64,000 bases of DNA from Saccharopolyspora galaxeae. GTDB taxonomy: Bacteria; Actinomycetota; Actinomycetes; Mycobacteriales; Pseudonocardiaceae. Each line of letters opens with the position of its first letter. The stretch's first letter is position 1. Location: positions 124,001 through 188,000 of the forward strand of contig NZ_JADDUE010000009.1 of the NCBI RefSeq assembly GCF_016526145.1, in the 5' to 3' direction. The notes under the pieces are model-generated. The model worked only from the letters and a program-made list of their open reading frames with translations. It did no database searches and was not told where the DNA came from. The translations under genes were made by a program, and so were the position numbers. Positions 11,514 through 56,916 of this stretch are shown piece after piece.

Positions 11514-11522
11514 GATGACCAC

Positions 11523-37683: not shown

Positions 37684-37691
37684 CGCGGCGC

Positions 37692-38663: not shown

Positions 38664-38748
38664 CGCAAGACCTCCTCGCGGTGCGGCTCGGCGGGGCGTT
38701 GCTCGCTCGACCGGTTCGCGGGCCGGATCCGGCGAGCGGCCGCCACCT

Positions 38749-38763
38749 GTTACTGGAAGTAAC
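38749..38763. promoter_or_regulatory. TetR-type palindrome GTTACT-GGA-AGTAAC upstream of the di-iron gene
   Basis: Six-base arms around a 3-base centre, followed by a partial second copy (TACTGGAGGT). It lies about 85 bases before the di-iron gene start. The same 60 bases recur at 53207-53267 in front of a decayed copy, showing that the site belongs to this locus. Confidence 0.65.
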
Positions 38764-38791
38764 GGGTACTGGAGGTGGCACTATGCAGCGC

Positions 38792-39800: not shown

Positions 39801-40304
39801 ATGTTGAGCTGCCGACGTTCTCGTCGATGGGCCGCCGAACTCGTCGACGAGCTGGCATTGCCCGCGCGCTTTTCGACGGAGTTCTTGCTGGGGAGGGTCG
39901 CTGCGCGCAAGGGGCGCCGGCTGGAGGTGTTGCCGCTTCCGGTTTCGGGAGGGGTCGGCCGACCGCACGGGTTGTGGGTGCAAGCCGCGGAGGCCGACTA
40001 CATCTTCGTGGAGCCGCGGACGAGCGCGCTGCACCGGCGGCACATCGTGCTGCACGAGATCGGCCACATCCTGGCGCACGAGCGAGTGGCGCGGGGCCGG
40101 GGGCGGGAGGAATTCCGCAGTCTGGTGCCCGACTTGGACCCGGAGGTGGTGCAGCGGCTGCTGGCTCGCGCGCACGACGGCACCGCCGATGCCGCGGAGC
40201 GGGAGGCCGAGGAGATCGCGACCGCGTTGGGACGGCGCATCCGGGACGCGCCGCCGAGAAGGGTCCCGGCGGTCGGGGGAGTGCTGGGCTTCCGGGCGTC
40301 GTGA
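39801..40304 (+). CDS. ImmA/IrrE-like zinc metallopeptidase
   Basis: A 167-residue protein with the HEIGH zinc-binding motif (HRRHIVLHEIGHILAHE, near residue 80) and a downstream acidic helix (EREAEEIATALG) that supplies the third ligand. ImmA/IrrE proteases cleave XRE-type repressors. The ATG follows GGGGGAG. It overlaps the next gene (MAB_1171c-like) by four bases, a pairing seen in actinomycetes, often together with an XRE regulator; the nearest XRE gene here is at 52380-52853, at the other end of the cyclitol cluster. Confidence 0.83.
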   Translation: MLSCRRSRRWAAELVDELALPARFSTEFLLGRVAARKGRRLEVLPLPVSGGVGRPHGLWVQAAEADYIFVEPRTSALHRRHIVLHEIGHILAHERVARGRGREEFRSLVPDLDPEVVQRLLARAHDGTADAAEREAEEIATALGRRIRDAPPRRVPAVGGVLGFRAS

Positions 40305-41479
40305 TGATCGACCAGCTGCCGGTCCCGGCCGGGCAGGCACTGGAACTCGGCGGCATCGCGGCGCTGTGGCTGGCTCTGCTCGTGCGGGTACCGGATGCGT
40401 TGCGGCGGCGTGACATGCGGTCGTTCTGGGCGACGTGCAGCGGGATCGCGGCGGCCATGGCGCTGCACACCGATCTGTCATGCGCGCTGTTGAGGGAGTT
40501 GTCGGGCGACCCGCAGGTGGTGCACGTCCTGCGCAACTCCGTCGCGGTGGCCGCGTCGTGCCTGGTGCTGCACAACTTCACCGCATATCTGCGGTTTCCG
40601 CTGCGGAAGTCGTTGCCGATCGGGTTCGGTGCGGTGGTGGCCAGCGCGCTGCTGTTCACCGATCTGCGCGCGGTCGGGTTCTGGAGCCGTCCGGTCGCCG
40701 AAGGGGTGCTGGGCAGCTACTGGTCCGGATTCCTGCCGCTGCACTTCGCCGCGGACCTCACGGCGGGCCTGCTGTGCGTGCGGGCGGTTCGCAGCGGCGG
40801 GCCACCACCGTTCCGGCTCGGAATGTCGGCGTACGCCGCGGGTTTCCTGCTGGGTGCCGGGGTCGGGATTCCGCTGGCGGGAGTCGGCGCGGCGGTGGGG
40901 GATCCGGGATTGCGGGAGTTCGGCCCGGTGGTGTCGGGGTTGCAGGCGTGCTGCTTGGCGATCGGAGTGGGCGCTCCGCTGCTGTCCGCCGTGTGCGCGG
41001 ATCTGCGGAAGCGGCGGGGCCTGCACGCCATCTATCCATTGTGGATGGACATGATCCGTGCCGTCCCCGAGGTGAACCGCACCGAGGTGCGGAGCAGGAT
41101 TCGAGCGCTGCTGCGCTCGCCGTCGGCCGTCGGAACGCTCCGGTATCGGCTGATCATCGAGATCCGCGATGCGGTGCTGGTGCTGAGCCACTACTGCTCG
41201 CCCGAGCTCGCCGCCGCGGCGCGAGCGCACGCCGCAGAACGCGCGTCCCGGACCGGTCGGCCCGAAGCCGTGGTGCTGGCCTGCTGGTTGCGGCGCGCTG
41301 TCCTGGAACGCGCCGGTGGCGGCCCCGCCTGCGGCGCGGGGTCCGCGTTGCCCGGTGGGGACGATCTCGACGAGGAGGAGCGGTTCCTGCTCGAAGTCGC
41401 AGAGGTGTACCGATCCGGACCCGCGCTGCGGTTCGCCCTCGGCCGGGCGCCGCAAGCGGTTGTCGCACCCGGCCGCTGA
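40301..41479 (+). CDS. MAB_1171c-family membrane protein (putative transporter/regulator)
   Basis: A 392-residue protein. The N-terminal 240 residues contain about seven hydrophobic segments; the last 150 residues are cytosolic and contain IYPLWMDMIRAVPEVNR and RYRLIIEIRDAVLVLSHY, typical of the family. The GTG overlaps the ImmA stop by four bases; an ATG three bases later is an alternative. Function in the family is unproven. A signalling role with ImmA, sensing at the membrane and triggering repressor cleavage, is an inference from the constant pairing. Confidence 0.75.
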   Translation: MMIDQLPVPAGQALELGGIAALWLALLVRVPDALRRRDMRSFWATCSGIAAAMALHTDLSCALLRELSGDPQVVHVLRNSVAVAASCLVLHNFTAYLRFPLRKSLPIGFGAVVASALLFTDLRAVGFWSRPVAEGVLGSYWSGFLPLHFAADLTAGLLCVRAVRSGGPPPFRLGMSAYAAGFLLGAGVGIPLAGVGAAVGDPGLREFGPVVSGLQACCLAIGVGAPLLSAVCADLRKRRGLHAIYPLWMDMIRAVPEVNRTEVRSRIRALLRSPSAVGTLRYRLIIEIRDAVLVLSHYCSPELAAAARAHAAERASRTGRPEAVVLACWLRRAVLERAGGGPACGAGSALPGGDDLDEEERFLLEVAEVYRSGPALRFALGRAPQAVVAPGR

Positions 41480-41541
41480 GGCGGTCCGGCCGATGGCGGG
41501 TTTCGGGCAGGTGACGCGAATTTCAAAATCATCCATTTCAG

Positions 41542-41570
41542 TTGACGGTTGATATCGGGGTGACTAGTCT
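41542..41570 (+). promoter_or_regulatory. Sigma-70-like promoter for the cyclitol operon
   Basis: TTGACG (41542-41547), a 17-base spacer, and TAGTCT (41565-41570) form a good vegetative promoter in an AT-richer stretch. Transcription from about 41577 would leave a leader of about 220 bases before the cyclase ATG. The leader shows no obvious riboswitch. Confidence 0.55.
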
Positions 41571-41799
41571 CGATCGCAGCGACGCAAGCTGACATGGATG
41601 TCGTCACTGGGGAGTTCGACACCGCCGGACGGTCGGCGGTTCGTCCCGCTCGTCGTCGCGCACCGGCACTGCGGCCGGTCCCGTTCATGGTCGGGAGTCC
41701 CTCCGATCGGATGCGGTGTGCCTGGGGTGAGCCGCAGCGCCGCGTCCGACCGGGTCGCCACCGGCCGCGGTCGAACAATTGCTTTCCTGGGGAGGAAAA

Positions 41800-42975
41800 A
41801 TGCCGGAATCCACCGGATCCGGGCGGACCAGCACGACCTGGCGCGTCGGCGCCCGGCAGCCCGTCGACTACGAAGTCGTGATCGCGAGGGGACTGCTGGA
41901 GCCGCAGAACCGGGAACTGGCGCAGGCGTGCGGGGCGGACGGCGTTGCGACGCGGTGCCTGGTGCTCATCGACGACGCCGTGGACGTGCTCTACGGCGAG
42001 GCGCTGCGCGCGTACTTCGACGCCTGGTCGATCGACACGAGCTGGACCGTGATCAACGGTTCGGAGGAATCCAAGAGCATCGCGCAGGTCGTGGCCGCGA
42101 CCGAGGCGATGAGCTCGATGGGCATCCTGCGCCGGGCCGAGAAGGTCATCGCCATCGGCGGCGGTGCCGTGCTGGACGTGGCCGGCATGGCCGCCAGCCT
42201 CTACCGCCGAGGAGTGCCGTACGTGCGGGTGCCGACCACCCTCATCGGCCAGGTCGACGCCGGAGTGGGGGTCAAGACCGGCGTCAACTACGGGACGCAC
42301 AAGAATCGGCTGGGCAGCTACTACGCCCCGGAGAAGGCGCTGATCGACCCGGAGTTCCTGCGCACGGTCCCGCAGCGGCACATCAACAACGGCATGGCCG
42401 AGATCGCCAAGATGGCGCTGATCAAGGACCGCGAGCTGTTCGAGCTGCTGGAGTCGGTGGCCGGCGAAGTCAGCGCGGCCACGCTGGCCGACGCCGGCCC
42501 GCACCTGCTGGAGATCATGACCCGCGCCATCGGGGGGATGCTCGACGAGCTCGAACCCAACCTGTGGGAGCACGAGCTGGAGCGGGTGGTGGACTACGGG
42601 CACACGTTCAGCCCGTCGTTGGAATTGCGCGCGGACCCGCCGCTGCTGCACGGCGAGGCGGTCGCGGTGGACATGGCGGTGTGCGTGGCCGTGGCGCACA
42701 ACCGAGGGCTGCTCGGCCACGAGGGCGCGGACCGGGCGCTCGCCCTGCTGCAGGCGCTGGGATTGCCGACCACCGACCCGGTGTTCACCACCGAGCTGCT
42801 CGCCGAGTCGTTGCAGGACGCGGTCCGGCACCGGGACGGTGCGCAGCGGGTACCGCTGACCAGCGGGCTCGGTTCCGCGGTGTTCGTCAACGACATCGAC
42901 GACGGCGAATTGGCCGCGGCGCTGGAATTCGTGCGCGCGGCGGCGGGCACCGGCCTGGTGCGGGCGAGCCGATGA
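41800..42975 (+). CDS. Sedoheptulose 7-phosphate cyclase (2-epi-5-epi-valiolone synthase-like)
   Basis: A 391-residue NAD- and metal-dependent cyclase of the dehydroquinate synthase superfamily. Sequence wording marks it as a sugar phosphate cyclase, not AroB: IGGGAVLDVAGMAASLYRRG near residue 120, RVPTTLIGQVDAGVGVKTGVN, HKNRLGSYY, NNGMAEIAKMALIKD and the metal-site DYGHTFSPSLE and HGEAVAVDMA. It should convert sedoheptulose 7-phosphate into a C7 cyclitol, most simply 2-epi-5-epi-valiolone as in acarbose, validamycin and cetoniacytone pathways. The ATG follows GGGGAGGA. It heads an eleven-gene rightward set. Confidence 0.88.
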   Translation: MPESTGSGRTSTTWRVGARQPVDYEVVIARGLLEPQNRELAQACGADGVATRCLVLIDDAVDVLYGEALRAYFDAWSIDTSWTVINGSEESKSIAQVVAATEAMSSMGILRRAEKVIAIGGGAVLDVAGMAASLYRRGVPYVRVPTTLIGQVDAGVGVKTGVNYGTHKNRLGSYYAPEKALIDPEFLRTVPQRHINNGMAEIAKMALIKDRELFELLESVAGEVSAATLADAGPHLLEIMTRAIGGMLDELEPNLWEHELERVVDYGHTFSPSLELRADPPLLHGEAVAVDMAVCVAVAHNRGLLGHEGADRALALLQALGLPTTDPVFTTELLAESLQDAVRHRDGAQRVPLTSGLGSAVFVNDIDDGELAAALEFVRAAAGTGLVRASR

Positions 42976-43994
42976 ACCCGGTCGCGGTGGTCGACGTCGG
43001 CGGTACCCGGCTGCGCAGCGCCACCTGGACACCGCGGGGCGGGCTGCGGGACCGGACCGAAGCGGCCTCGCCCGGGCGCTACCGGGACCCCGATGCGACG
43101 CCGGAGCAGCTGCGGGCACGCCTGGTGCAGGAGATCTGCCAGGCCGTCCCGGCCAGGCCGGATGCGGTGGCCGGAGTCTCCGTCGGCGCGGCCCTGGACC
43201 ACCGGACCGGTGCGGTTTACGCCTCGGCGCCGCTCTGGGGGGACTGCACCGAGCCGTTGGACCTCCTCGGTGAACTGCGCGCGGCGCGGCCGGATGTGCG
43301 ATGGCACGTGGTCAACGACGTGACCGCGGCCCTGCTGCACGCCGCGGCCTCGCCGGTACTCGCAGCGGTCCGGAAGGTGCTGCTGGCCACGATCAGCACC
43401 GGCATCGCGTGCCGCGTGATCGACCAACGGGACGGCCGGATCGCGGTCGACGATTGCGGCCTGCAAGGCGAGATCGGGCACCTCCCGGCGCACGCCGCGA
43501 TGCGCGGAGAGCCGCTGCGGCTGCGGTGCGATTGCGGTGCGCCTTCGCACCTCGCCGCTTTCAGCTCAGGCCCCGGCATCCGACGGGTGGCCGAGCTGTT
43601 GCGGCTGAACCGGCCCCGTCAGTGGCAGGAATCGCTGCTGGGGAAGCGGATCGCGGACGGCGCGGCGTTCGAGGACGCGTTCGCCGCGGCGCTGCACAGC
43701 GCCGATGCGGCGGCGACCGAGCTGCTGTCGGTGGTCACCGAACCGGTGGCTGACGTGGTGCGTACGGCGCTGTGCCTGGACCCGGAACTCGATCGAATCG
43801 TCCTCACCGGCGGGGTCGCAGTCGGCTTGGACGAGCACTACCGCACGGCTGTGCTGGAGCACCTGGACCGGGCGGGCACCTACCTGACCGGTGAACTGGC
43901 GCCGGACTGGGCGCGGCGGCGCATCGAGATCGCCGGCCCGGAATCGGCCGACTGCTTGGTCGGCGCGGGCATCGCCGCGGCGGGGCAGCGGTGA
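42972..43994 (+). CDS. ROK-family sugar/cyclitol kinase
   Basis: A 340-residue ATP-dependent kinase. The N-terminal phosphate motif is VVDVGGTRLR, the catalytic aspartate is in VVNDVTAAL, and the ROK signature histidine is in GEIGHLP. The zinc cluster is incomplete: CDCGAPSH replaces the usual CxCGxxGC. By analogy with AcbM it probably phosphorylates the free cyclitol made by the preceding enzyme at C7. It overlaps the cyclase stop by four bases. Confidence 0.82.
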   Translation: MNPVAVVDVGGTRLRSATWTPRGGLRDRTEAASPGRYRDPDATPEQLRARLVQEICQAVPARPDAVAGVSVGAALDHRTGAVYASAPLWGDCTEPLDLLGELRAARPDVRWHVVNDVTAALLHAAASPVLAAVRKVLLATISTGIACRVIDQRDGRIAVDDCGLQGEIGHLPAHAAMRGEPLRLRCDCGAPSHLAAFSSGPGIRRVAELLRLNRPRQWQESLLGKRIADGAAFEDAFAAALHSADAAATELLSVVTEPVADVVRTALCLDPELDRIVLTGGVAVGLDEHYRTAVLEHLDRAGTYLTGELAPDWARRRIEIAGPESADCLVGAGIAAAGQR

Positions 43995-45064
43995 GCGGGC
44001 GGCACCGCGCCCTCGTGCGCGGTTCCGGCAGGATCGCGGTGGAACTCCGGCCGACGCCGCGCCCTGCCGCAGGGGAGCTGCTGGTCGCCACCAAGTTCGC
44101 CGGGTTGTGCGGCACGGACATCCAGATGCTCCGGGGACTGCGCGACGACGCCGCCGAGGTGATCGGACACGAAGGGATCGCGACCGTGATCTCCGCCGGC
44201 GCCGGTGCGGGGCCGGGGCCGGGCACCGAAGTCGTGGTGAACCCGACCCACCCGTCCTCCGAGTCCTTCCTGTTGGGGCACAACGTGAACGGCCTGCTGC
44301 AAGAGCGCACTCTGGTGCCGCGCGACGCGGTCGAAGCTGGCCTCGTGCTCCCGCTGGAAACGGCCCCGGAGCCGGAACTGGCGGCATTGCTCGAACCCCT
44401 CTCGGTGGTGCGGTACGCGCTGAGCGCGTTGCAGCGGTTCCGCCCGGAGACGTTGGTCGTCTTCGGTGGCGGAACCGTGGGCCGGTTGGCGATCCGCGCC
44501 GCGCACCGCTGGCTCGGCCCGGCCGTGCGCACCGTGCTCGTGCACCGCGGTGCCGAACCGGGGCTCACCGGAGCGCACACCGACATCCGAACCGATGATC
44601 TCGGCGCAGTGCGCGGATTGGTGGCCGTTCTGGTGGCGACGCCGCGCGACGGCACGGTCGAGTGCCTCCGCGCCGCGCTGGGCATGTCCGCGGACAGCCT
44701 GGTGGTGGACCTGGTCGGCGGGCTGTCCGCCGGTGCGGAAGTGCCGGAGCTGCCCGGGGTCGACCTGGCCGCGGTCAGGGCCGCGAACCGCACCGGGTTC
44801 CCCGATCCGCCGAGCACGTACACCGGACGAGCCCCGAACGGCGGGCACGTGCGGTTGTTCGGGCATCGCGGGGTTTCCGCGGAGCACCTACGCGCGGCCG
44901 CAGCCGAACTCGTCCGGGACCCCGGGCGATATCGGGACGTCATCACGCACGTGACCGGACTCGGCGGCGCAGCACGAATCATGCGCGATCTCGCCCGCGG
45001 CGGAGATCGCATCGTCGACGGCAGACGCCTGGTGAAGCTCGCCGTTCGCGTCGGCGACCCGTAG
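43991..45064 (+). CDS. Medium-chain (zinc-type) dehydrogenase lacking the structural zinc site
   Basis: A 357-residue MDR-family dehydrogenase with catalytic-zinc ligands in GLCGTD (Cys38) and GHEG (His58, Glu59), but without the four-cysteine structural zinc loop, where it reads NPTHPSSESFLLGHNVNG. The nucleotide motif is weak (VFGGGTVGRLAIR). It probably oxidises a cyclitol hydroxyl or reduces its ketone. GTG overlaps the kinase stop by four bases. A second MDR gene of the normal type follows at 48477. Confidence 0.8.
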   Translation: MSGRHRALVRGSGRIAVELRPTPRPAAGELLVATKFAGLCGTDIQMLRGLRDDAAEVIGHEGIATVISAGAGAGPGPGTEVVVNPTHPSSESFLLGHNVNGLLQERTLVPRDAVEAGLVLPLETAPEPELAALLEPLSVVRYALSALQRFRPETLVVFGGGTVGRLAIRAAHRWLGPAVRTVLVHRGAEPGLTGAHTDIRTDDLGAVRGLVAVLVATPRDGTVECLRAALGMSADSLVVDLVGGLSAGAEVPELPGVDLAAVRAANRTGFPDPPSTYTGRAPNGGHVRLFGHRGVSAEHLRAAAAELVRDPGRYRDVITHVTGLGGAARIMRDLARGGDRIVDGRRLVKLAVRVGDP

Positions 45065-45085
45065 CAACGACACGAGGAGCACTTG

Positions 45086-45835
45086 ATGACGCAGATTTCC
45101 GAGCCGGCGCGCGCGTTGGTCGTCGGGGGCTCGACCGGCATCGGACGCGCGATCGCCGGCGCCTGGGCGGAAACCGGCGCGGAAGTGATCGTGGCCAGCC
45201 GCAGCCGTCCGGACGATGCGGCGCTCGGCTGGCTGCAGATCGACCTGTCCGATCCGGCGGGCACCAGGCGGGCGCTGGCCGAGGTGGTCCGGCAAGGACC
45301 GCTGCACGCGGCCTGCTACTCCGCCGTCCACTACGGGGACAAGCGAGCACCGTTGCGCGACGTGGCCGAATCCGAGTGGCTGCACCAGCTCGAAGTGAAC
45401 CTCAACGGGCTGTGGCGCACCGTGGCCGCCGTGTCGGCGGCCCTGCGCGAGGCCGCTCCCGGGCTGTTCGTGGGGGTGTCGTCGGAGGTGGTCTACAACG
45501 CGGGCCCGGGCAGACCCGGTTACGCGGCCACCAAGTCGGCCGCGGCGAGCTTGCTGGACTCGCTCGCGCAGGAGGAGAGCGCCGAGGCGCTCCGGGTCGT
45601 GCAGGTACTGCCCTCCGGCATGGTCGACACTCCCGGGATCCGCCGTCGGCGGCCCGCGGACTTCGACTACGGCGAATACATGCGGCCCGCCTGCTTCGCG
45701 CCGCTCGCGGCGGAGCTGCTGCGCACCCGCGGCACCGAGCAGCACGGTGACCACTTGGTGGTGCAACCGGACGGTTCATGGCGCTCCGTGCACGCGGGTC
45801 TGCCCGAATCGCAGAGCAGGGAGCCGGCCACGTGA
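45086..45835 (+). CDS. Short-chain dehydrogenase/reductase
   Basis: A 249-residue SDR with the TGxxxGxG variant GGSTGIGR, an NLNG-type asparagine in EVNLNGLWRT, the catalytic serine in VGVSSEVVYN and the YAATK motif. The ATG follows GAGGAG by six bases. It is a second redox enzyme for the ring; substrate unknown. Confidence 0.87.
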   Translation: MTQISEPARALVVGGSTGIGRAIAGAWAETGAEVIVASRSRPDDAALGWLQIDLSDPAGTRRALAEVVRQGPLHAACYSAVHYGDKRAPLRDVAESEWLHQLEVNLNGLWRTVAAVSAALREAAPGLFVGVSSEVVYNAGPGRPGYAATKSAAASLLDSLAQEESAEALRVVQVLPSGMVDTPGIRRRRPADFDYGEYMRPACFAPLAAELLRTRGTEQHGDHLVVQPDGSWRSVHAGLPESQSREPAT

Positions 45836-46611
45836 GCCCGCCGCTGGTCGGCGTCGTCGATTGGCGACTGCCGGTGCGCGGGGGAGCCGCGGTCGAGCTG
45901 GCCGGGCGGATCGGCGCGGACGGCGTCCAGCTCGATCTCGGAGGGCCGGGGCGTGGCGAGCGGCTCGACGGTCCCGGGCGGCTCGGCCGCATCCGGGAAG
46001 CGTCCTGCCGGGCCGGGGTCGCGGTGCTCGCAGTGGCCGTGAACGCCATGAACGACATCGGCCTGATGTCGGGCGATGCCGCTGTGCGCAGCACGCTGCT
46101 GCGTGCGCTCGATGCGGCGGGCGCGCTCGGCGCCGGCCTCGTGTTCGTGCCGAGTTTCCGACGCAGCGCCATCGACGGAACCGCGGCGCTGCGCAGTACC
46201 GCCGAAGTGCTGCGGTGGGCAGCGGCCGAAGCCGCCGCGCGCGGCCTGCTGCTGGCGAGCGAGAACGTGCTCGACTCCCGGCAAGCGCGGGCGATGGCAA
46301 CAGCGGTCGGCTCGGATTCCTTCCGCCTGCTGCTGGACACCTACAACCTGGTCGCGGCCGGGGGCGACCCGGTGCGGCTCGTCTCGGCCGTTCCGGAGCT
46401 GCTCGCCGACCAGATCCACGTGAAGGACGGCCCGGGCGGAGATGCGTCGCGGGTGCTCGCGGCCGTTGCGCGATCCGGGACCGATGTGGGCGCCCTCGTG
46501 CTGGAGAACGACCACCGGGACGACGACGCGGCGCGGCTTCGGCGCGATCTGGCCCGGTTGCGCCGGTACGCCGCCCGATTCACCGATGCACCGAACAGCG
46601 AGGAATTCTGA
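45832..46611 (+). CDS. Sugar phosphate isomerase/epimerase-like TIM barrel
   Basis: A 259-residue AP-endonuclease-2-type TIM barrel with metal ligands in LLASENVLDS (Glu), LLLDTYNL (Asp), DQIHVKDG (His) and LVLENDH (Glu). It may epimerise the keto-cyclitol, a job done in validamycin-type clusters by a VOC-family epimerase that is absent here. GTG overlaps the SDR stop by four bases, and its own stop overlaps the next ATG by one. Confidence 0.8.
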   Translation: MSPPLVGVVDWRLPVRGGAAVELAGRIGADGVQLDLGGPGRGERLDGPGRLGRIREASCRAGVAVLAVAVNAMNDIGLMSGDAAVRSTLLRALDAAGALGAGLVFVPSFRRSAIDGTAALRSTAEVLRWAAAEAAARGLLLASENVLDSRQARAMATAVGSDSFRLLLDTYNLVAAGGDPVRLVSAVPELLADQIHVKDGPGGDASRVLAAVARSGTDVGALVLENDHRDDDAARLRRDLARLRRYAARFTDAPNSEEF

Positions 46612-47270
46612 TGGACCAGCGAGTCATCACCGCCCGGATCCTGCTGTTCGACATGGACGGCACGCTCGTCGACTCGTCCGCGGTCGTCGAGCGGACCTGG
46701 CGCCTTTTCGCCGAACGCCACGGCCTCGACGGTGCGACGGTGCTCGCCGATGCGCACGGCCGGCCGACCGCGGAGACGGTCGCCCGGCACCTGCCGGGCG
46801 CCACCGACGCGGCCGCGGAGACCGCCCGGATAGTGGCTTCCGAGGTGTCCGATGTGGACGGAATCGTGCCGGTTCCCGGCGCGGTGGAGCTGTTGTCGCA
46901 ACTGCCGGCCGCGAACTGGGCGGTCGTGACCTCGGCAGGCCGGGAACTGGCCGAACGGCGCATGGCCGCGGCCGGGCTGAACCTGCCCGGCGTCGTGGTG
47001 AGCGCCGACGACGTCCGATCGGGGAAACCCGATCCGGAGGGCTACCTGCTCGCCGCCGAACGGCTGGGAGCGACCGCCGCGGAGGCGGTCGTGTTCGAAG
47101 ACGCCGCCGCCGGATTGCTGGCCGCGCGCTCCAGCGGAGCGAGCCCGGTCGTGGTCGGGGGCCACGACGGGCCGGCCGCGGTCGGCCTTCCGCGGGTCGA
47201 AGACCTGCGTTCGGTCACCACCGACCGGCGAACCCACGACGGACTGCTCGTGCAGATCCGGAACAGATAG
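46611..47270 (+). CDS. HAD-superfamily phosphatase
   Basis: A 219-residue HAD hydrolase with all core motifs: LLFDMDGTLVDSS near residue 13, a serine/threonine in VVTSAGR, the lysine in RSGKPDPEGY and the acidic pair in VFEDAAAG. It should remove a phosphate from the cyclitol, so it forms a logical pair with the ROK kinase upstream. The start overlaps the previous stop as TGATG. Confidence 0.87.
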   Translation: MDQRVITARILLFDMDGTLVDSSAVVERTWRLFAERHGLDGATVLADAHGRPTAETVARHLPGATDAAAETARIVASEVSDVDGIVPVPGAVELLSQLPAANWAVVTSAGRELAERRMAAAGLNLPGVVVSADDVRSGKPDPEGYLLAAERLGATAAEAVVFEDAAAGLLAARSSGASPVVVGGHDGPAAVGLPRVEDLRSVTTDRRTHDGLLVQIRNR

Positions 47271-47283
47271 GAGTAGATCTGCT

Positions 47284-48468
47284 GTGAACGCAAACTGGGG
47301 GATCACCGAACGGGACCGGAAGTCCCGATTGCCGTCGCTGACGGGTATGCGTTTCCTGTCGGCGCTGCTCGTGTTCTTCTTCCACGCCTCCTGCACGACG
47401 CCGCCGTGGACCTTCTTCGGCGACCCGGCGCAAGCAGGCGCATTCAGCGCGATCACCGCTGACGCGGGCCGCATCGGAGTCGCCTTCTTCTTCGTGCTGA
47501 GCGGTTTCGTGCTGACCTGGTCCGGCGACGTCGTGGGCAGCGTCACGGATTTCTGGCGCCGCCGACTCGTGAAGATCGTGCCCAACCACCTGGTCACCTG
47601 GGTGCTGGCGATGCTGCTGTTCAGCGGCAGCACCGTCGCGGCGGGGACGGCGCTGGCGAACCTGCTGCTGGTGCACCCGTGGATGCCCGACTACTACACC
47701 TTCCTGAGCGTCAACGTGCCGAGCTGGTCGCTGGGGTGCGAGCTGCTGTTCTACCTGTCCTTCCCGGCCCTGCTCCCGCTGATCCGCAGGATTCCGGACC
47801 GCTGGTTGTGGGCTTCGGCGACGGGCGTGATCGCGGCCGTGTTCGGCGTCGCGGTCGTGGCGCAGTTCCTGCTGCCCGCGGAGCCCGCGCTGCCGGAGGC
47901 GAACTCCCCCGGGTCGGTCTGGCAGTTCTGGTTGGTGTACTTCCTGCCCGCCACCCGCGTGCTCGACTTCGCGCTGGGCATCGTCATGGCGCGCATCGTG
48001 CTGCGCGGGCGGTGGATCGGGCTCGGGCTCGGTCCGGCAGCGCTGCTGACCGCCGTGAGCTACGTGCTCGCCTCGTTCGTGCCGTGGGTGTTCCACCTCA
48101 ACGCCGCCACGATCATTCCGCTGGCGCTGCTGATCCCGGCCGCGGCCTGCGCCGACATCCGGGGGCGGCGATCGCCGTTGCGCGGGCGTTTCGCGGTGTG
48201 GCTGGGCGAGATCTCGTTCGCCTTCTACATGGTGCACGCGCTGGTGCTGACCGGAACGCGGGCGCTGCTGGGCGAGAACACCTACTTCGGAGCCGGGGGT
48301 GCGGGGCTGGTCGTGCTCGCGGAACTCGTCGTCTCGGTGCTCGGGGCGTGGTTGCTCTACACCGCCGTGGAACGACCGGTCATGCGCAGGTTCGGCCGCC
48401 GCCGCGCGGTTCGCTCCACTGTGGACTCCGCTGCGCCCGCGGCCGCACCGACCACCACCGCGAAATGA
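47284..48468 (+). CDS. Membrane acyltransferase (acyltransferase-3 / OafA type)
   Basis: A 394-residue polytopic protein with about ten hydrophobic segments. The N-terminal LPSLTGMRFLSALLVFFFHAS contains the catalytic histidine (FFFHA), followed by GVAFFFVLSGFVLTW, FWRRRLVKIVPNHL and the VPSWSLGCELLFYLSFPAL signature of OafA-like enzymes. It transfers an acyl group (acetyl or longer) to hydroxyl groups of sugars or antibiotics at the membrane. In this operon it is the main candidate for decorating the cyclitol. GTG start with AGGAG upstream. Confidence 0.85.
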   Translation: MNANWGITERDRKSRLPSLTGMRFLSALLVFFFHASCTTPPWTFFGDPAQAGAFSAITADAGRIGVAFFFVLSGFVLTWSGDVVGSVTDFWRRRLVKIVPNHLVTWVLAMLLFSGSTVAAGTALANLLLVHPWMPDYYTFLSVNVPSWSLGCELLFYLSFPALLPLIRRIPDRWLWASATGVIAAVFGVAVVAQFLLPAEPALPEANSPGSVWQFWLVYFLPATRVLDFALGIVMARIVLRGRWIGLGLGPAALLTAVSYVLASFVPWVFHLNAATIIPLALLIPAAACADIRGRRSPLRGRFAVWLGEISFAFYMVHALVLTGTRALLGENTYFGAGGAGLVVLAELVVSVLGAWLLYTAVERPVMRRFGRRRAVRSTVDSAAPAAAPTTTAK

Positions 48469-48476
48469 GGTCTTCC

Positions 48477-49541
48477 ATGCAGACTGCCGCCGACGCCGCC
48501 GCGGACCGGACGCCGCGGGCGGAGATGTCCGCACTGGTGCTGGAAGCTCCCGGGACGATCTCCGAACAGCGGATGGTCACGCCGGCTCCTCGCCCGGGGC
48601 ACTACCTGGTCGAGATCGGCCTTCTGGGGCTGTGCGGAACCGACCTCGGCTTCTACGACGGTTCCAGCAACTACCTCGCCGACGGGCTGAAATCGTTCCC
48701 GTTCGTCTTCGGGCACGAGTGGAGCGGCCGGGTCGTCGGCATCGGTGCCGGCGGCACGCGGTTCGCGCTCGGACAGCGCGTTTCCGGGCACAATTTCCGG
48801 CCCTGCGGCAGGTGCGCCTCCTGCTCCCGGGGAACTCCCCGGTACTGCCCGCAGCGCAGTGAGATCGGGGTGCTCGGTGCGGAGCCGGGCGCGGCAGCCG
48901 ACTACCTGGAAGTCCCGGAGGATTCCTTGATCGGGCTTCCCGACCCGGTCGGCGACGCTGCCGCGGTGCTGCTGGAACCCGGTTCGGCCGCGGTGCACGC
49001 GGTCCGGCGGCTGGAGATCACCGGCGAGGACCGGGTGGCGGTCTTGGGCGCGGGCACGCTCGGGCTCGTGGCCGCGCAAGTGTGCGCGGGGCTGGGAGCC
49101 CGGGTCGCGGTGTTCGACCCCCAGCCCGGACCGCGGGAACTCGCCGCGGAGCTGGGCATCGCGGAGGTGGGGGCTCCGCAGCAGGCCGCGCCCGACGCCT
49201 ACTCCGCCGTGATCGAGGCATCCGGCGCGGTCGCAGCCGTCCGCGGCGCGCCGGAACTGTGCGCGCCCGGCGGGCGCATCGCCCAGCTCGGCACTCCGCA
49301 CCACGCGATCGACGGATTTCCGGCCGCCACCTTGGTGGTGAAGAACGTGACGCTGCATGCCGTCTTGTCCGGAATCGGGTACTGGGCGGACATGCTGGAA
49401 TTCGTGGAAAAACGGCTGCTGCGGCTGGAACCGTTGGTAGATTCGATCCATTCGCGATCCGAAGTCGGCGCAGCCTTCGGTCAGCTCGCCGCCAGCGGCC
49501 GCCGACGTCCGAAGATCCTGCTGCGCATGAACGCGCGGTGA
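48477..49541 (+). CDS. Zinc-dependent alcohol dehydrogenase (MDR family)
   Basis: A 354-residue MDR dehydrogenase with both zinc sites: catalytic GLCGTD and GHEW, and structural CGRCASCSRGTPRYC. The nucleotide motif is VLGAGTLGLVAAQV. Similar to sorbitol/threonine dehydrogenase-type enzymes acting on polyols. The ATG at 48477 is preferred with AGG six bases upstream; an in-frame ATG at 48465 overlaps the previous stop and is also possible. Confidence 0.84.
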   Translation: MQTAADAAADRTPRAEMSALVLEAPGTISEQRMVTPAPRPGHYLVEIGLLGLCGTDLGFYDGSSNYLADGLKSFPFVFGHEWSGRVVGIGAGGTRFALGQRVSGHNFRPCGRCASCSRGTPRYCPQRSEIGVLGAEPGAAADYLEVPEDSLIGLPDPVGDAAAVLLEPGSAAVHAVRRLEITGEDRVAVLGAGTLGLVAAQVCAGLGARVAVFDPQPGPRELAAELGIAEVGAPQQAAPDAYSAVIEASGAVAAVRGAPELCAPGGRIAQLGTPHHAIDGFPAATLVVKNVTLHAVLSGIGYWADMLEFVEKRLLRLEPLVDSIHSRSEVGAAFGQLAASGRRRPKILLRMNAR

Positions 49542-49558
49542 AATCCGCAAAAGGAGCA

Positions 49559-50353
49559 ATGAAACCTGTGAGCACTGTTTCCACGTCGACGGCGAAGGTG
49601 TACTACACGGCTTCCGGCAGCGGCCCCGGATTGGCGCTGGTGCACGGAACCGGGGCAGATTCCGCGTCGAACTTCGGGCACCTCGTCGAGCGCTTCGCCG
49701 ACCGGCGAACCGTGATCACCCCGGACTACGCGGGCAGCGGCGCGACCGAGGACGACGGACGGCCGATCACCGTGGAGGCGCTGACCGAACAGGTCGCCGC
49801 GGTGCTGCGCGACGCCGCCGACGAGCCGGTGGACCTGGCCGGGTTCTCGTTGGGCGCCGTGGTCGCGGCATCGGTCGCTGCGCGGCATCCGGAGCTGGTG
49901 CGGCGGCTGGTGCTCATCGCGGGCTGGCAGGACTCCTCCGATCCGCGGCACCGGCTGGCGTTCGACCTGTGGCGGCGGCTGGCCGATCTGGACGCGCGGG
50001 CGTACGCGCAGATGATCAACCTGCTGCTGTTCACGCCGGGGTTCTTGAGCCGGATGGGTGCCGACGCGCTGGAGGAGGCGGTGGCGGGAACGGCGTGCTC
50101 GGACGGGACGAACCGGCAGATCGACCTCGGGCTCGCCGCGGACATCACCGGCCTGACGCCGAAGATCACCGCGCCGACGCTGGTCATCGGCTGCACCCAC
50201 GACCAGCTCGTGCCGGTCGAGCACTCCCGGCAGCTGCACGAATCGATCCCGGGCAGCCGCTACCTGGAACTCGACAGCGGGCACCTCGTGGTCGCCGAAC
50301 GCCCCGACGAACTCGTCGCCGCCGTTCGCGACTTCCTGCACGACGAGAACTGA
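49559..50353 (+). CDS. Alpha/beta-fold hydrolase
   Basis: A 264-residue alpha/beta hydrolase with oxyanion region LVHGTGADS, nucleophile elbow GFSLGA (Ser near residue 100), acid in GCTHDQLV and the catalytic histidine in DSGHLV. It could be an esterase that edits acyl groups, or a lactonase. The ATG at 49559 follows AAGGAG closely; an upstream in-frame GTG (49538) overlapping the previous stop is an alternative. Confidence 0.82.
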   Translation: MKPVSTVSTSTAKVYYTASGSGPGLALVHGTGADSASNFGHLVERFADRRTVITPDYAGSGATEDDGRPITVEALTEQVAAVLRDAADEPVDLAGFSLGAVVAASVAARHPELVRRLVLIAGWQDSSDPRHRLAFDLWRRLADLDARAYAQMINLLLFTPGFLSRMGADALEEAVAGTACSDGTNRQIDLGLAADITGLTPKITAPTLVIGCTHDQLVPVEHSRQLHESIPGSRYLELDSGHLVVAERPDELVAAVRDFLHDEN

Positions 50354-50383
50354 CGGACCAGGACGGAGACGAGGTTCCGCCCC

Positions 50384-51574
50384 ATGCCCATTCCCGTGTT
50401 CGCTCTCATGCTCGGCGTGTTCTGCGTCGGCACCGCCGAAGTGGCGATCTCCGGACTGCTCCCGAACGTCGCGGCCGACCTGGTGGTGACCGTGCCGTCA
50501 GCGGGCCTGCTGGTCACCGGCTACGCCCTCGGCGTCACGGTGATCGGCCCGGCGGTCACCCTGCTGACGAGCAGGGTGCGGCGCAAACCGCTGGTGCTCG
50601 GTTTGATGGCCGTGTTCGTGGCGGGCAACCTCGTCGCCGTCGTCGCCCCGAACTACGGGCTGCTGATGGCGGCCCGGGTATTCACCGCCACCAGCCACGG
50701 CACGTTCGTCGCCCTCGCCTTCTACCTCGCGGTGCTCATCGCGCCGCCGGGGCGGAAGGGCTCGGCGATGGCGAAGATCTCGCTCGGGTTCAACCTGGCG
50801 AACGCGCTCGGTTCGCCGCTGGGCACCTTCGTCGGCCAGCGGTTCGGCTGGCGATCCACGTTCGCGGTCATCGCGGTGGTGGCGATCGTGACGGTGGTGC
50901 TGATCGCGGTGTTCCTGCACCCGCCCGCCGACCGCGCGCAGCCTGCCGGGCGGTCGAACCTGCGCGCGGAGGTCCGCGAACTGGGCAGTCCGGCGCTCGG
51001 GATGGCCGTGGTGATCACCGTGCTCGCGCAGGGCGCGGTGTTCACCACCTCGACCTACCTGGTCCCGATCCTGCAGGACGTCAGCGGGTTCGCACCCGGG
51101 CTGATGTCGGCGCTGCTGGTGGTGTTCGGGGTGGGATCGGTCTGCGGGAACTTCGCGGGCGGTCGCATCGCGGACGGGCACGTGCTCCGGGGCGTGCTGC
51201 TGCTGCTGAGCACGCTGACCGCGGTGTGCGCGCTGTTCTGGGTGGTCGCGCCGGTGCCCGCCCTGGCCGTGGGCGCGGTGCTGCTGTTCGGAGCGGCGGG
51301 GTTCTCCATCATCCCGAGTCTGCAAACGCACATCGAGACGATCGCGGCCGCCGCACCCACCCTCGCGCTGTCGGTGAACGTCTCGGCGTTCAACCTCGGC
51401 AACGGCCTCGGAGCGTGGCTCGGCGGCCAGGTCATCGACCTCGGGATGGGAACCCGGTCGGTGCTGCTGACCTCCGCGGTCGTGTGCGGCGCGAGCCTGG
51501 CCCTGACCGCGGGTTCGTACCTGCTCGGACACGGCGCGCAGAAGCGGACGGCCGTGCCCGCGACGGCCGGCTGA
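50384..51574 (+). CDS. MFS exporter (AraJ/sugar-efflux type)
   Basis: A 396-residue, twelve-helix MFS protein resembling AraJ/SotB-like drug:H+ antiporters. Marks are GTAEVAISGLLPNVAADL in the first helix region (seen as GTAEVAISG), GYALGVTVIGPAVTLL, and ARVFTATSHGTFVALAF. It is the likely exporter or self-resistance determinant of the cyclitol product. 30 bases separate it from the hydrolase, and 15 from the next gene. Confidence 0.86.
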   Translation: MPIPVFALMLGVFCVGTAEVAISGLLPNVAADLVVTVPSAGLLVTGYALGVTVIGPAVTLLTSRVRRKPLVLGLMAVFVAGNLVAVVAPNYGLLMAARVFTATSHGTFVALAFYLAVLIAPPGRKGSAMAKISLGFNLANALGSPLGTFVGQRFGWRSTFAVIAVVAIVTVVLIAVFLHPPADRAQPAGRSNLRAEVRELGSPALGMAVVITVLAQGAVFTTSTYLVPILQDVSGFAPGLMSALLVVFGVGSVCGNFAGGRIADGHVLRGVLLLLSTLTAVCALFWVVAPVPALAVGAVLLFGAAGFSIIPSLQTHIETIAAAAPTLALSVNVSAFNLGNGLGAWLGGQVIDLGMGTRSVLLTSAVVCGASLALTAGSYLLGHGAQKRTAVPATAG

Positions 51575-51589
51575 CAGGAGGAACTCCCG

Positions 51590-52438
51590 GTGCAGCTGCA
51601 CCTGATCCTTCCGGCGGAAACACCGGACATGCCGTTCACCGAACTCCGCGAACTGGCCGTGCTGGCCGAACGGCTCGGCTACCGCGGTGCGTGGTTGCCG
51701 GACCACCTGCTGCCTCCCGGGCGGTACGAACCGGGCAGCTACGGAGGCGTTTTCGACCCGCTCGTCGCGCTGGCGGCCATCGCCGGTGCGACCAGCGAGA
51801 TCCGGCTCGGCACGTCGGTGCTGGTGCTGCCGTTGCGGAGCCCGTTCGTCGTGGCCAAGCAGGCCGCGACGATCGAGCGGATCTCCGCGGGCCGTTTCAC
51901 GCTCGGCGTCGGAATCGGCTGGGACGCAGCGGAATTCAGCACGGTCGGGGCGGAGTTCACCGGTCGAGCGGCGCGTGCGGACGAGGCCATCGAGCTGATC
52001 CGGCAGCTGCTCGGCGGTGACGGCGCGTTCACCGGTCGGCACTGCGGTTCGCCCGGCGGCGTCTTCGAACCCGTGCCGACCGGGCCGGTGCCGATCGCGG
52101 TGGGCGGTTCCGGGAAGCCGGCGCTGCGGCGGGCCGCGCGGCTCGGCGACGAGTGGCAGCCGATCCGCCCGTGCCCGGAACGGTTCGCCGCGGACCTCGC
52201 CTGGTTGCGCGCGAACTCGGCGCGCCCGGTTCGCGCGTCGGTGCGCACGTCGTGGACCGGAGGGGCCGCGGAGTTGGATCAGGTGCTCGCGGAGGTGAGC
52301 GGTTACGAGCGGGCGGGAGCCGCCGCGACGGCGATCTGGTTCGGCTCGGATGCCGGCGTGCCGGAGCGGATGGCCGAGTTCATCCCTGCGGCGAACGAGG
52401 TTCTGCGGAACTCTGCCGGCCGATGGCCAAGGACTTGA
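51590..52438 (+). CDS. LLM-class F420-dependent oxidoreductase
   Basis: A 282-residue luciferase-like TIM barrel of the F420-dependent class. GYRGAWLPDHLLP, GATSEIRLGTSVLVLPLRSP, SAGRFTLGVGIGWD and PIAVGGSGKPALRRAARLGDEW are characteristic. It probably carries out a reduction in the pathway (for example of an enone on the ring). GTG follows AGGAGG. It is the last rightward gene and its 3' end overlaps the convergent XRE gene by 59 bases. Confidence 0.86.
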   Translation: MQLHLILPAETPDMPFTELRELAVLAERLGYRGAWLPDHLLPPGRYEPGSYGGVFDPLVALAAIAGATSEIRLGTSVLVLPLRSPFVVAKQAATIERISAGRFTLGVGIGWDAAEFSTVGAEFTGRAARADEAIELIRQLLGGDGAFTGRHCGSPGGVFEPVPTGPVPIAVGGSGKPALRRAARLGDEWQPIRPCPERFAADLAWLRANSARPVRASVRTSWTGGAAELDQVLAEVSGYERAGAAATAIWFGSDAGVPERMAEFIPAANEVLRNSAGRWPRT

Positions 52439-52853
52439 CCAGCGCGGTGACCTCGTCCAGCCCTTCCCCGTCGAGCAGCGGGGCGTAGGTGCAGATCTCG
52501 CGGATCCGGCTGCTGCGCATCGCCAGCACGAGCTCGTACTGCGCGATGATCTCACGGGTGCTCTCGTCGTCGGTGAAGAACGCCACCGGCACGCGGAAGA
52601 ACTCGGCCAGCCCCTGCAGGTGGTGCAGCGTCGGGTTGTCGCGGTGACCGCGGCACAGCTGGTGCAGGTAGCCGTGCGAGATCGACTTGCCGGTAGCCTC
52701 GCTGATCTCCGCGGCCAGCTTCTCGAAGGTCGGCCACCGCCCGGAGCCGTCCCCGCGCTGGTCGGCTTGCCGCACGTGGATGTCGATCAGGTACCCGAGC
52801 TTGTCCGCCAGCGTCTTCGGCAGCTGCTCGGCGGGGTCGGCGGCCCGGTTCAT
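52380..52853 (-). CDS. XRE-type helix-turn-helix regulator
   Basis: A 157-residue DNA-binding protein with an XRE helix-turn-helix (GKSISHGYLHQLCRGHRDN near residues 48-66) followed by LQGLAEFFRVPVAFF. This type, with a Tyr/Leu-rich C-terminal helix, often accompanies ImmA and MAB_1171c genes in actinomycetes, here located 12 kb away at the other end of the cyclitol genes. The ATG at 52853 follows GGAGG; an upstream GTG (52865) is less well placed. It is convergent with and overlaps the LLM gene. Confidence 0.84.
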   Translation of the reverse strand: MNRAADPAEQLPKTLADKLGYLIDIHVRQADQRGDGSGRWPTFEKLAAEISEATGKSISHGYLHQLCRGHRDNPTLHHLQGLAEFFRVPVAFFTDDESTREIIAQYELVLAMRSSRIREICTYAPLLDGEGLDEVTALVKSLAIGRQSSAEPRSPQG

Positions 52854-53062
52854 GAGTACCTCCACCCGAACGAACTACCTCCACTGCCAGATTAGCTGAC
52901 CTCGCGGCCATCGGGGACCGCCCGCGGGCGCGGGAGCCAAAACCGCAGGCAGCGCGGATGTGCCGCGTGGCATCCGGTTCCGGGCGCCGTTGGTTCTTGC
53001 CCGCGCTGTTCGGGTGGCCGCCACCCCGGACGCCCACATTGCGCGACCAGCTGCACCCGACC

Positions 53063-53280
53063 GACCCGTTCCACCACCCAATCCTGGGCGCGTGCGTCGG
53101 TGTGGCCGCGGTTGCCCAGGAGTTTGCGGAACATCCAGGCGATCTGGCGCACGTACGGCTCGGTGTCCAGGTCGGTTCGGCGGTGCGACGGGTGACCGGC
53201 TCCGCGTGTTACTGGAAGTAACGGGTACTGGAGGTGGCAGTATGCAGCGCTCCGCGCGCCGCTGTCAACGCCGGGCGAGG
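53063..53280 (-). pseudogene. Decayed internally deleted copy of the di-iron gene and its promoter
   Basis: Positions 53063-53174 match 38238-38349 (inside the di-iron gene; codes RQIAWMFRKLLG and DWVVERVG), and 53207-53267 match 38748-38808 (its promoter with the GTTACT-GGA-AGTAAC palindrome). About 395 bases that lie between these blocks in the intact copy are missing, including the start codon and about 100 codons. Sequence before 53063 is unrelated. The copy cannot make protein but keeps the operator at 53208-53222. Confidence 0.88.
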
Positions 53281-53308
53281 TGCCCGGCGCCGGTGAAGTC
53301 CAGCAACC

Positions 53309-54313
53309 TCAGAAGGCGCCGGCGTAGGCGTTCAAGGCAGGCTGACCGCCGAGATGGGCGTAGAGGACGTTGGAATCGGCTCCGATCTCGCCCGAGCGCA
53401 CGAGGTCGATCAGACCGGCCATCGACTTCCCCTCGTAGACCGGATCGATGATCATGCCTTCCAGTTCGGCGGACGTTCGGATCGCGTCGAGGGTGGATCG
53501 CACCGGGATGCCGTAGCGATCGCCCGCCCAGCCTTCGAGCACGGTGATCTCGTCGTCCCGGAGTTCGCGCTCGAGCCCGCTGAGCTCGGCGGTGTTGCGG
53601 GCGATCCGGTCGACCTGGTCCCGTGCGCTGGCCGGCGTGGCCGATGCGTCGATCCCGATGACGCGACGCGGCCCGTCCTGCTCGGCGAACCCGGCGATCA
53701 TGCCCGCGTGCGTGGACCCGGTCACGGTGCACACGACGATCGTGTCGAAGTGGACGCCGAGTTCGGCCTCCTGGCTGGCGACCTCGCGCGCCCAGTTCGC
53801 GAACCCGAGCCCGCCCAGCGGGTGCTCCGAGGCGCCGGCCGGAATTCCGTAGGGGATTCCGCCCGCAGCGCGGACTTCTTCCATCGCGCGCTCCCAGGAA
53901 TCGCGGATGCCGATGTCGAACCCCGCCGGGTCCAGTCGTACGTCGGCTCCCATGAGCCGCGACAGGAGGATGTTGCCGACCTTGTCGTTGACCGCGTCGG
54001 GCCAGTTGACCCAGTTCTCCTGCACGAGGCGCGCTTTGAGGCCGAGCTTCGCCGCGACCGCGGCGACCTGCCGGGTGTGGTTCGACTGGTACCCGCCGAT
54101 CGAGACGAGCGTGTCGGCGCCGGAGGCCAGCACGTCCGGGACGATGTACTCGAGCTTGCGGGTCTTGTTGCCGCCGTAGGCCAGACCGGAGTTGCAGTCC
54201 TCGCGCTTGGCCCAGATCTTCGCCCCGCCCAGGTGCGCGGTCAGCCGTTCCAGCGGATGCACCGGGCTGGGGCCGAAAAGCAGCGGATAGCGGGGGAACT
54301 CGTCGACGGGCAC
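53309..54313 (-). CDS. acdS: 1-aminocyclopropane-1-carboxylate deaminase
   Basis: A 334-residue PLP enzyme that opens ACC to 2-oxobutyrate and ammonia. PLP lysine Lys50 (GGNKTRK), Ser77 (QSNHT), Tyr293 and Glu294 (PVYEGKS) and Leu321 (HLGG) correspond, each one residue lower, to Lys51, Ser78, Tyr294, Glu295 and Leu322 of the Pseudomonas enzyme, so it is a true ACC deaminase and not a D-cysteine desulfhydrase. GTG with AGGAG six bases upstream. It stands alone, with no Lrp-type regulator beside it. The enzyme lowers plant ethylene in plant-associated bacteria. Confidence 0.93.
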
Positions 54314-54460
54314 GCGAATCTCCTAGTCGGGTCGAGGGGTGAGCCGGCTCGATGATGCGGGCTTGCCGGGCGAACGAGAAGCCCGGTGAGCGAGGCGGTT
54401 CGCCGCTGGCAGGTGTCGGAGTCTCGATCCGAGTGCTGCGTCGCCCCGACCGGCGGTCGG

Positions 54461-56890: not shown

Positions 56891-56916
56891 TGACAACCTC
56901 CTCGCGTCGTGTGCAC

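Follow-up and report, generated by a model that had tools for sequence, protein, structure and literature searches.

Eleven genes in a 64,000-nucleotide window of the Saccharopolyspora galaxeae genome, the whole stretch of DNA analysed here, probably encode a C7-cyclitol route of the acarbose type that has been turned to a small acylated product. The eleven open reading frames (ORFs; window positions 41800-52438) all lie on the + strand and form a single tight operon, with successive genes separated by -4, -4, 21, -4, -1, 13, 8, 26, 30 and 15 bp. They encode, in order, a predicted sedoheptulose-7-phosphate cyclase (41800-42975; Pfam DHQ_synthase, PF01761/PF24621), a ROK-family kinase (42972-43994; ROK, PF00480), a medium-chain dehydrogenase/reductase (MDR1; 43991-45064; ADH_N, PF08240), a short-chain dehydrogenase/reductase (SDR; 45086-45835; adh_short, PF00106), a xylose-isomerase-like TIM barrel (45832-46611; AP_endonuc_2, PF01261), a predicted HAD phosphatase (46611-47270; HAD, PF00702/PF13419), a membrane acyltransferase (47284-48468; Acyl_transf_3, PF01757, E 1.1e-26), a second MDR (MDR2) of the zinc-type alcohol dehydrogenase kind (48477-49541; ADH_N and ADH_zinc_N, PF08240 and PF00107; NCBIfam threonine and scyllo-inosose dehydrogenase families below cut-off), an esterase-like alpha/beta hydrolase (49568-50353; Abhydrolase, PF00561/PF12697), a major facilitator superfamily (MFS) exporter (50384-51574; MFS_1, PF07690; NCBIfam Cmx/CmrA-like below cut-off) and an F420-type oxidoreductase of the luciferase-like monooxygenase (LLM) kind (51590-52438; NCBIfam TIGR03619, F420 subfamily, above cut-off). 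The Pfam scan covered the ten proteins other than the LLM protein, which was typed by NCBIfam only, and the NCBIfam scan covered ten proteins including it; the hydrolase was scanned by Pfam from base 49589, the gene itself starting at 49568. An earlier sequence-only reading of this DNA had named the same eleven genes, and all of the ORFs and their families were confirmed. It had also pointed to the lack of an aminotransferase, glycosyltransferase or vicinal oxygen chelate (VOC) protein, and indeed none was found among the eleven cluster proteins (Pfam for ten, NCBIfam for LLM) or, by Pfam, among ten flanking genes and three regulator genes. Nucleotidyltransferases and (pseudo)glycosyltransferases were likewise not found in these cluster, regulator and flanking genes. 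The nearest VOC domain on the same contig (PF00903), among the matches listed, lies ~35 kb from the cyclase, and two DegT/StrS aminotransferases ~30 kb upstream belong to another gene group.

The first five genes of the operon have counterparts in the acarbose (acb) pathway. In genome G1016, locus L136 contains, in order, a glycosyltransferase, a nucleotidyltransferase, a small unscanned gene, a glycosyltransferase, HAD, GH77, PfkB, ROK, MDR, SDR and PF01261 genes and a cyclase gene of 1197 bp, together with a GDP_Man_Dehyd-type protein on the opposite strand and one further gene without a Pfam match (annotated by Pfam, except ROK, MDR and cyclase, which were annotated by BLAST). We infer that L136 is the acarbose cluster of Actinoplanes sp. 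SE50/110, because its gene order and 1197-bp cyclase match published acb, for which the cited accounts give the order acbQ-K-M-L-N-O-C (PMC6599336) and an acbC length of 1197 bp (PMC3364876). A second cyclase of G1016, found with a ROK gene (L137), fits the Acpl6249-6251 operon as given in the literature. The window proteins share 48.6% identity with the L136 cyclase (AcbC), 56.2% with AcbM (ROK kinase), 57.5% with AcbL (MDR1), 55.6% over 216 aa with AcbN (SDR) and 50.8% with AcbO (TIM barrel), and the five core genes share their relative order with acb, up to circular permutation. AcbM, AcbL, AcbN and AcbO have biochemically assigned activities in the acarbose route, according to the reports cited (PMC7081202, PMC9200736). 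In MDR1, C40, H60, E61 and E135 are invariant across 11 aligned sequences, and the predicted structure model has a pLDDT of 81.2. The window cluster contains every element of an acarbose-type core, namely a cyclase of the 2-epi-5-epi-valiolone synthase (EEVS) type, a ROK 7-kinase, a PF01261 epimerase, an AcbL-type MDR (putatively the cyclitol dehydratase) and an AcbN-type SDR. The sequence-only reading named a characterised cluster of identical gene content as grounds for giving it up; acb goes half of that way, five of the eleven genes being those of acb C-M-L-N-O. What is new here is the acyl-tailoring set on an acarbose-type core, which is well bounded, conserved and strain-variable; the core enzymology is already known.

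Identification of the cyclase as an EEVS-type sedoheptulose-7-phosphate cyclase, as the earlier reading had proposed for the general class, is supported by structure-database scores, active-site residues and phylogeny. In a PDB search, the window cyclase scored 367 bits against ValA (4p53), 250 bits against 5tpr, an entry titled 3-dehydroquinate synthase that we take to be a desmethyl-4-deoxygadusol synthase (DDGS), and 137 bits against the best dehydroquinate synthase (DHQS), a lead for ValA of 116 bits on DDGS and of 230 bits on the best DHQS. The residues at ValA D281 and H360, presumably the two positions that distinguish the cyclase types and located in the cyclases by motif, are D and H in the window cyclase and in the tree rows whose loci carry a VOC (29/29), TIM (19) or ribulose-phosphate 3-epimerase (RPE; 4) homologue. 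Elsewhere in the tree, the same positions are A/T in DDGS 5tpr and N/T or N/S in three AroB rows, while the seven rows without a typed epimerase include three D/H, two D/R and two A/T. The paper that identifies 4p53 as ValA describes EEVS and DDGS as separated by two active-site positions (PMC4426668). A quick maximum-likelihood tree with 64 rows, which leaves out 12 of 71 loci (L040, L053, L056, L058, L063, L066, L067, L072, L091, L103, L137 and L140), places the window cyclase within an eight-row TIM-type clade (SH-aLRT 99) of six Pseudonocardiaceae, a genome from a different family (G1062) and one Agrobacterium vitis plasmid. A phylogeny against EEVS, 2-epi-valiolone synthase (EVS) and DDGS types had been proposed earlier; in this tree, which is without EVS sequences, the cyclase lies on the ValA/AcbC side and not with DDGS or AroB. 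Its D/H pair differs from the A/T of DDGS, and it lies outside the three-row AroB clade (support 100). On the PDB scores, the D/H pair and the tree placement, a DHQS or DDGS was rejected. The window genome also holds L071, a second gene of the EEVS-like kind, and L003, which is AroB-like. An apparent in-frame stop in the second cyclase gene was rejected, as the TGA sits at the end of the match and an uninterrupted 398-aa ORF is predicted in both L071 and L072.

The TIM barrel is similarly supported as the AcbO counterpart and putative cyclitol-7-phosphate 2-epimerase. In one-way searches, AcbO as query had a single match in the window genome (the window TIM barrel), matched only itself in G1016 and had no match in a second genome of the same species (G001); a PF01261 protein at window position 59280 gave no AcbO match (E 0.45). 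An AlphaFold2 model of the TIM barrel (mean pLDDT 89.4, from an alignment of nine sequences) had as its best fold match UlaE, an L-xylulose-5-phosphate 3-epimerase (3cqi, E 1.4e-12), followed by D-tagatose 3-epimerase. Both of these fold relatives act alpha to a ketone, the same chemistry as is needed at C-2 of the cyclitol. E144, D169, H196 and E225, which by their position in the superfamily we take to be putative metal ligands, do not vary across 11 sequences and also occur in AcbO. Art22 was the best sequence-profile PDB match of the TIM alignment, and no link between it and an epimerase was found in open-licence papers. The earlier suggestion that the TIM barrel stands in for a VOC epimerase holds for the epimerase role, while its novelty does not: an AcbO counterpart in the same slot with 50.8% identity rules out a novel, non-orthologous replacement, the AcbO-type epimerase being known from acarbose. 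At least two types of epimerase are thus known for this step, the VOC epimerase being one: ValD is a VOC protein (as given in a reference title) and AcbO is a PF01261 TIM barrel.

By orthology with the tested acarbose enzymes, the cyclase would form 2-epi-5-epi-valiolone from sedoheptulose 7-phosphate, the ROK kinase would phosphorylate O-7, the TIM barrel would epimerise C-2, alpha to the ketone, MDR1 would dehydrate to valienone 7-phosphate and the SDR would reduce this to valienol 7-phosphate. The later steps are predicted from gene content only: the HAD protein may remove the 7-phosphate and release valienol (streptol), MDR2 and/or the LLM protein may adjust the allylic alcohol/ketone or a double bond, the membrane acyltransferase may esterify a hydroxyl, the hydrolase may trim or proof-read the ester, and the MFS protein may export the product. 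Since the cluster has no nucleotidyltransferase, pseudo-glycosyltransferase or aminotransferase, the product should be free, non-amino and O-acylated, probably a valienol or valienone that bears an acyl group. Gene content in this way supports the original proposal of a route without amination genes and with an acyl-tailoring set. Gabosines and COTC, from Streptomyces, are non-amino C7 carbasugar enones, of which gabosine G is an acetyl ester and COTC a crotonyl ester. From what is generally known of such compounds, oxidation of the allylic alcohol by MDR2 could give a gabosine-type enone. We tentatively suggest, as a possibility that falls short of being probable, that the cluster makes an acylated valienol or valienone of this gabosine/COTC kind (electrophilic enone esters), in which the acarbose cassette is re-used with a membrane acyltransferase and a HAD-MDR2-acyltransferase-hydrolase-MFS module moves between TIM- and VOC-type cores, as in locus L050. 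The premise of the sequence-only reading that known C7 pathways make amino-cyclitols or glycosides was too narrow. In the accounts cited, streptol is equated with valienol (PMC10131216) and is a known non-amino C7 cyclitol (PMC10131216, PMC8599487), the acarbose producer accumulates valienol and 1-epi-valienol (PMC7081202), and four carbasugars derived from a C7-cyclitol are described from Streptomyces lincolnensis (PMC10717218).

The tailoring genes accompany the core to different degrees in other genomes. In a congener (G004), all eleven genes are colinear at 61-79% identity (tblastn), with the acyltransferase at 79%. In 109.7 kb of background sequence, no match at 1e-8 was found for ROK, MDR1, SDR, HAD, acyltransferase, MDR2, hydrolase, MFS or LLM; besides AroB-like genes, for which some stretches had been chosen, the background matches were a TIM homologue in G008 and two DegT genes in the left part of the window. 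Because the eleven genes are colinear in G004 and the background search was free of kinase, MDR1, SDR and tailoring matches, their co-occurrence is not due to chance. Three genomes of another genus (g7) keep the core with HAD, MDR2, acyltransferase, hydrolase and MFS, at tailoring identities of 51-62% (50-52% for the acyltransferase in another comparison), and matches to these five tailoring genes are weaker in two f29 genomes (28-60%). Loci L068-L070 and an Agrobacterium vitis plasmid carry the core, MFS and another MDR; HAD, acyltransferase, MDR2, hydrolase and LLM had no match there (the plasmid gene table being incomplete). L050, a VOC-type locus, encodes HAD, MDR2, acyltransferase, hydrolase and MFS homologues at 45-60%, and the tailoring module is therefore not tied to one core. 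On the plasmid, pRvVAR031a of A. vitis VAR03-1 (L084 14929-22450), a complete acb-type core with MFS and MDR genes is found in an alphaproteobacterium.

Epimerase type was compared by BLAST across 72 loci with context, of which L099 lacks a cyclase, leaving 71 to be counted. These loci were picked for cyclase similarity (L090, L091 and L100-L103 with prior knowledge of TIM matches) and include some near copies; the counts are not independent. A TIM homologue was present in 23 loci, VOC in 34, RPE in five and none of these in nine, and TIM and VOC never occurred together. VOC typing used three VOC queries, on which the absence of VOC rests for loci other than the window. ROK matches occurred in 23/23 TIM, 3/34 VOC, 5/5 RPE and 1/9 remaining loci, MDR1 matches in 23/23, 0/34, 5/5 and 1/9, respectively, and an Acyl_transf_3 homologue near the cyclase in 8/23, 19/34, 1/5 and 0/9, while both cupins were present in 32/34 VOC loci. 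TIM homologues were found in 15 of 390 Pseudonocardiaceae genomes at E 1e-12 or better, 14 of them no further than ~3.2 kb from a cyclase. A thin sampling of the class, 394 genomes in all, gave three with such a homologue: the window genome and two from f29, each of the f29 pair having a cyclase nearby. The TIM label changes seven times on the cyclase tree, at least five of these changes being forced by well-supported branches, and cassettes and cyclases have therefore recombined.

Several of these loci have unusual gene combinations. L085, L093, L144 and L145, on an S. clavuligerus plasmid and in three actinomycete genomes, form a third cluster type and encode EEVS, ROK, MDR1-like and HAD proteins with an RPE homologue and a DegT-type aminotransferase, possibly another epimerase solution. 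In L053 (Streptomyces olivoreticuli, 16262-17716), the reading frame of MDR1 continues into ends that resemble SDR and TIM, as would follow from a deletion joining three core genes; this locus, counted as RPE by a 38% match on the far side of the cyclase, has the look of a TIM-type copy of L057 in decay. L052, the other S. olivoreticuli cyclase locus, has all core genes: its cyclase lies with two cupin, KAS-like, BBE and SDR homologues and a divergent ROK-MDR1-SDR-TIM-HAD cassette. With no VOC match by BLAST, it may be a hybrid. The second EEVS-like locus of the window genome (L071; G000:C3:112000-131999) carries the cyclase and a VOC gene along with homologues of a BBE-type oxidase, an SDR and two cupins, and is also present in G001; this cluster type of cyclase, two cupins and VOC is widespread.

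A number of findings weigh against an acarbose-type route to a small acylated product. The identity of G1016 with Actinoplanes SE50/110 is inferred, with gene content among its grounds, and product and enzyme roles are likewise assigned from gene content and homology. The window HAD protein does not qualify as an AcbJ orthologue, the match being 30% over 69 aa at E 0.027; sequence does not reveal the specificity of the acyltransferase, and for the hydrolase the removal of acyl groups, or a different substrate altogether, is just as conceivable. With regard to the epimerase, the VOC queries missed a short protein annotated as VOC that lies ~8 kb from the cyclase of L085, a locus typed RPE, and the AcbO-like TIM homologue of G008 (L099 9665-10660, 51% to the window's) is without a cyclase match in the 20 kb fetched. 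LLM was not found in the three g7 loci and is perhaps accessory, a point that bears equally on an alternative in which the core leads to valienol 7-phosphate and the end product is a cyclitol with a saturated ring, with MDR2 reoxidising, LLM reducing the ring double bond and acylation optional. The LLM gene does end the operon in both the window and G004, and a 46-47% homologue lies in the L052 cluster; however, the g7 loci keep the core, HAD, MDR2, acyltransferase, hydrolase and MFS without it, and none of its PDB relatives (F420-dependent glucose-6-phosphate and hydroxymycolic acid dehydrogenases, methylene-tetrahydromethanopterin reductases and flavin monooxygenases) is named as a ring C=C reductase, so a saturated product is unlikely. 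Core cassettes in L079, L096, L100 and L138 adjoin a glycosyltransferase-like (GT4/TreT-like) gene, that of L079 by Pfam and the others by BLAST to L079's, and the core alone therefore does not imply a non-glycoside. Together with a nucleotidyltransferase upstream of the cyclase in L066, this would fit valienol being handed to glycosyl- or pseudoglycosyltransferases encoded elsewhere to give a glycoside like streptol glucoside or acarbose. We regard this as rather improbable for the window, as no such gene occurs in the cluster or the ten flanking genes scanned, to which the search was confined, and the island, a self-contained variable segment, has its own exporter and acyltransferase.

Two further alternatives concern single enzymes. 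The TIM barrel could be an IolE-type dehydratase or IolI-type isomerase of a cyclitol ketone, with another protein epimerising or no epimerisation at all: PF01261 spans many activities according to the account cited (PMC5133447), the weak profile matches include IolI (E 0.0008), and the fold list contains a lyase and an eliminase. Against this, the window TIM barrel shares 50.8% identity with AcbO, assigned as the 2-epimerase in the acarbose studies cited above, and is the only match of AcbO in the window genome, the AcbL counterpart already provides a dehydratase, and the best fold matches are 3-epimerases, which makes a non-epimerase role very improbable. Similarly, the cyclase could be an EVS, DDGS or dehydroquinate synthase and give a different product series, in that aroB (TIGR01357) is its best NCBIfam match, at 223 bits against a cut-off of 305, and the comparison set is without EVS sequences; yet the lead of ValA over DDGS and DHQS, the ValA-like D/H pair and the separate AroB-like gene in the genome leave little room for this reading. 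An acarbose-type route to a small acylated cyclitol remains the preferred reading.

The cluster is strain-variable. In G001 (L104), the left part of the region (33082-38812) joins the right part (53170-57167) directly, with an alignment overlap of ~100 bases and identities of 99.0 and 97.9%, and a 14.46-kb segment with the cluster is missing. The variable segment is bounded by 65-bp direct repeats at 38748-38812 and 53207-53271 (96.9% identity), and a 114-bp direct repeat (94.7% identity) has one copy outside the segment to the left, in the Metal_hydrol gene (38236-38349), and one inside at its right end (53061-53174). No integrase-like gene was found among the 14 segment genes scanned (Pfam/NCBIfam), and in G004 the cluster lies near 4.1 Mb, while matches to the right flank of the window lie at 2.46-2.50 Mb. 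Insertion into the window strain and loss from G001 both fit. The 65-bp repeat holds a short palindrome-like stretch (TTACTGGAAGTAA) followed by ATG, perhaps an operator or start region.

Three further genes with G004 counterparts beside the cluster widen its span to 39801-52853. Upstream, on the + strand, are an ImmA/IrrE-like regulator-type protein (39801-40304; Peptidase_M78, PF06114; 54% to G004) and a DUF6545 protein, a probable regulator partner (40301-41479; PF20182; 52%), and downstream is an XRE-type helix-turn-helix (HTH) regulator on the - strand, convergent with the operon (52380-52853; PF01381 at its cut-off; 80% tblastn match in G004). By Pfam, the ten flanking genes are not related to the cluster and encode amidase, SnoaL-like, ferredoxin reductase-like, Metal_hydrol, PALP, sucrase/ferredoxin-like, JmjC, second PF01261 and MFS proteins and one without a match. 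Approximately 30 kb upstream of the cluster, positions 5219-17286 encode an AMP-binding enzyme, an amine oxidase-like protein, a UbiA prenyltransferase, the two DegT/StrS aminotransferases, a PF01261 TIM barrel, an M20 peptidase, an Ldh_2 protein and a GFO/IDH/MocA oxidoreductase. This gene group is separate from the cyclitol operon and may be an amino-sugar or amino-cyclitol cluster.

The distribution of the acarbose valienol core suggests a mobile, self-contained cassette, encountered in actinomycetes of four family groups as well as on an A. vitis plasmid and joined to differing tailoring genes. In the window strain and its congener, it forms part of a compact 11-gene set predicted to make non-amino acylated C7 cyclitols, a compound kind for which, whether of gabosine/COTC type or otherwise acylated, no gene cluster paper was found among open-licence PMC papers, among the matches listed. 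Epimerase type (AcbO-type TIM, VOC or RPE-like) offers a simple genomic marker of cluster type, and the Acyl_transf_3 counts near cyclases suggest that acylated C7 cyclitols may be commoner than the literature implies.

Among known systems, Candidatus Burkholderia kirkii, compared by product, resembles what is predicted for the window in making streptol/valienol, a non-amino valienol-type C7 cyclitol formed by an EEVS route, but its known derivative is streptol glucoside, with no acylation reported in the accounts cited (PMC8599487, PMC10131216). ValD/VOC-type C7 clusters (validamycin; L071) share an EEVS-type D/H cyclase and, in 19 of the 34 loci compared by BLAST (validamycin not being among the named loci), an Acyl_transf_3 homologue; they differ in having a VOC protein and usually two cupins (32/34), with a TIM epimerase in 0/34 and ROK in 3/34. 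The ebo operon also pairs a member of the sugar phosphate cyclase family (EboD) with a xylose-isomerase-like TIM barrel (EboE), but EboD forms a separate clade, and the six genes listed, UbiA, TatD-like and phosphodiesterase-like genes among them, are without ROK, MDR or SDR (PMC5133447). The closest likeness is to the acb cluster, which shares the cyclase, ROK 7-kinase, MDR dehydratase, SDR reductase and PF01261 epimerase at 49-57% identity to the window core. The acb cluster alone has glycosyl- and nucleotidyltransferases, GH77, a PfkB kinase and a GDP_Man_Dehyd-family protein, whereas the window cluster alone has a HAD protein of another subfamily, the acyltransferase, MDR2, the hydrolase, MFS and LLM.

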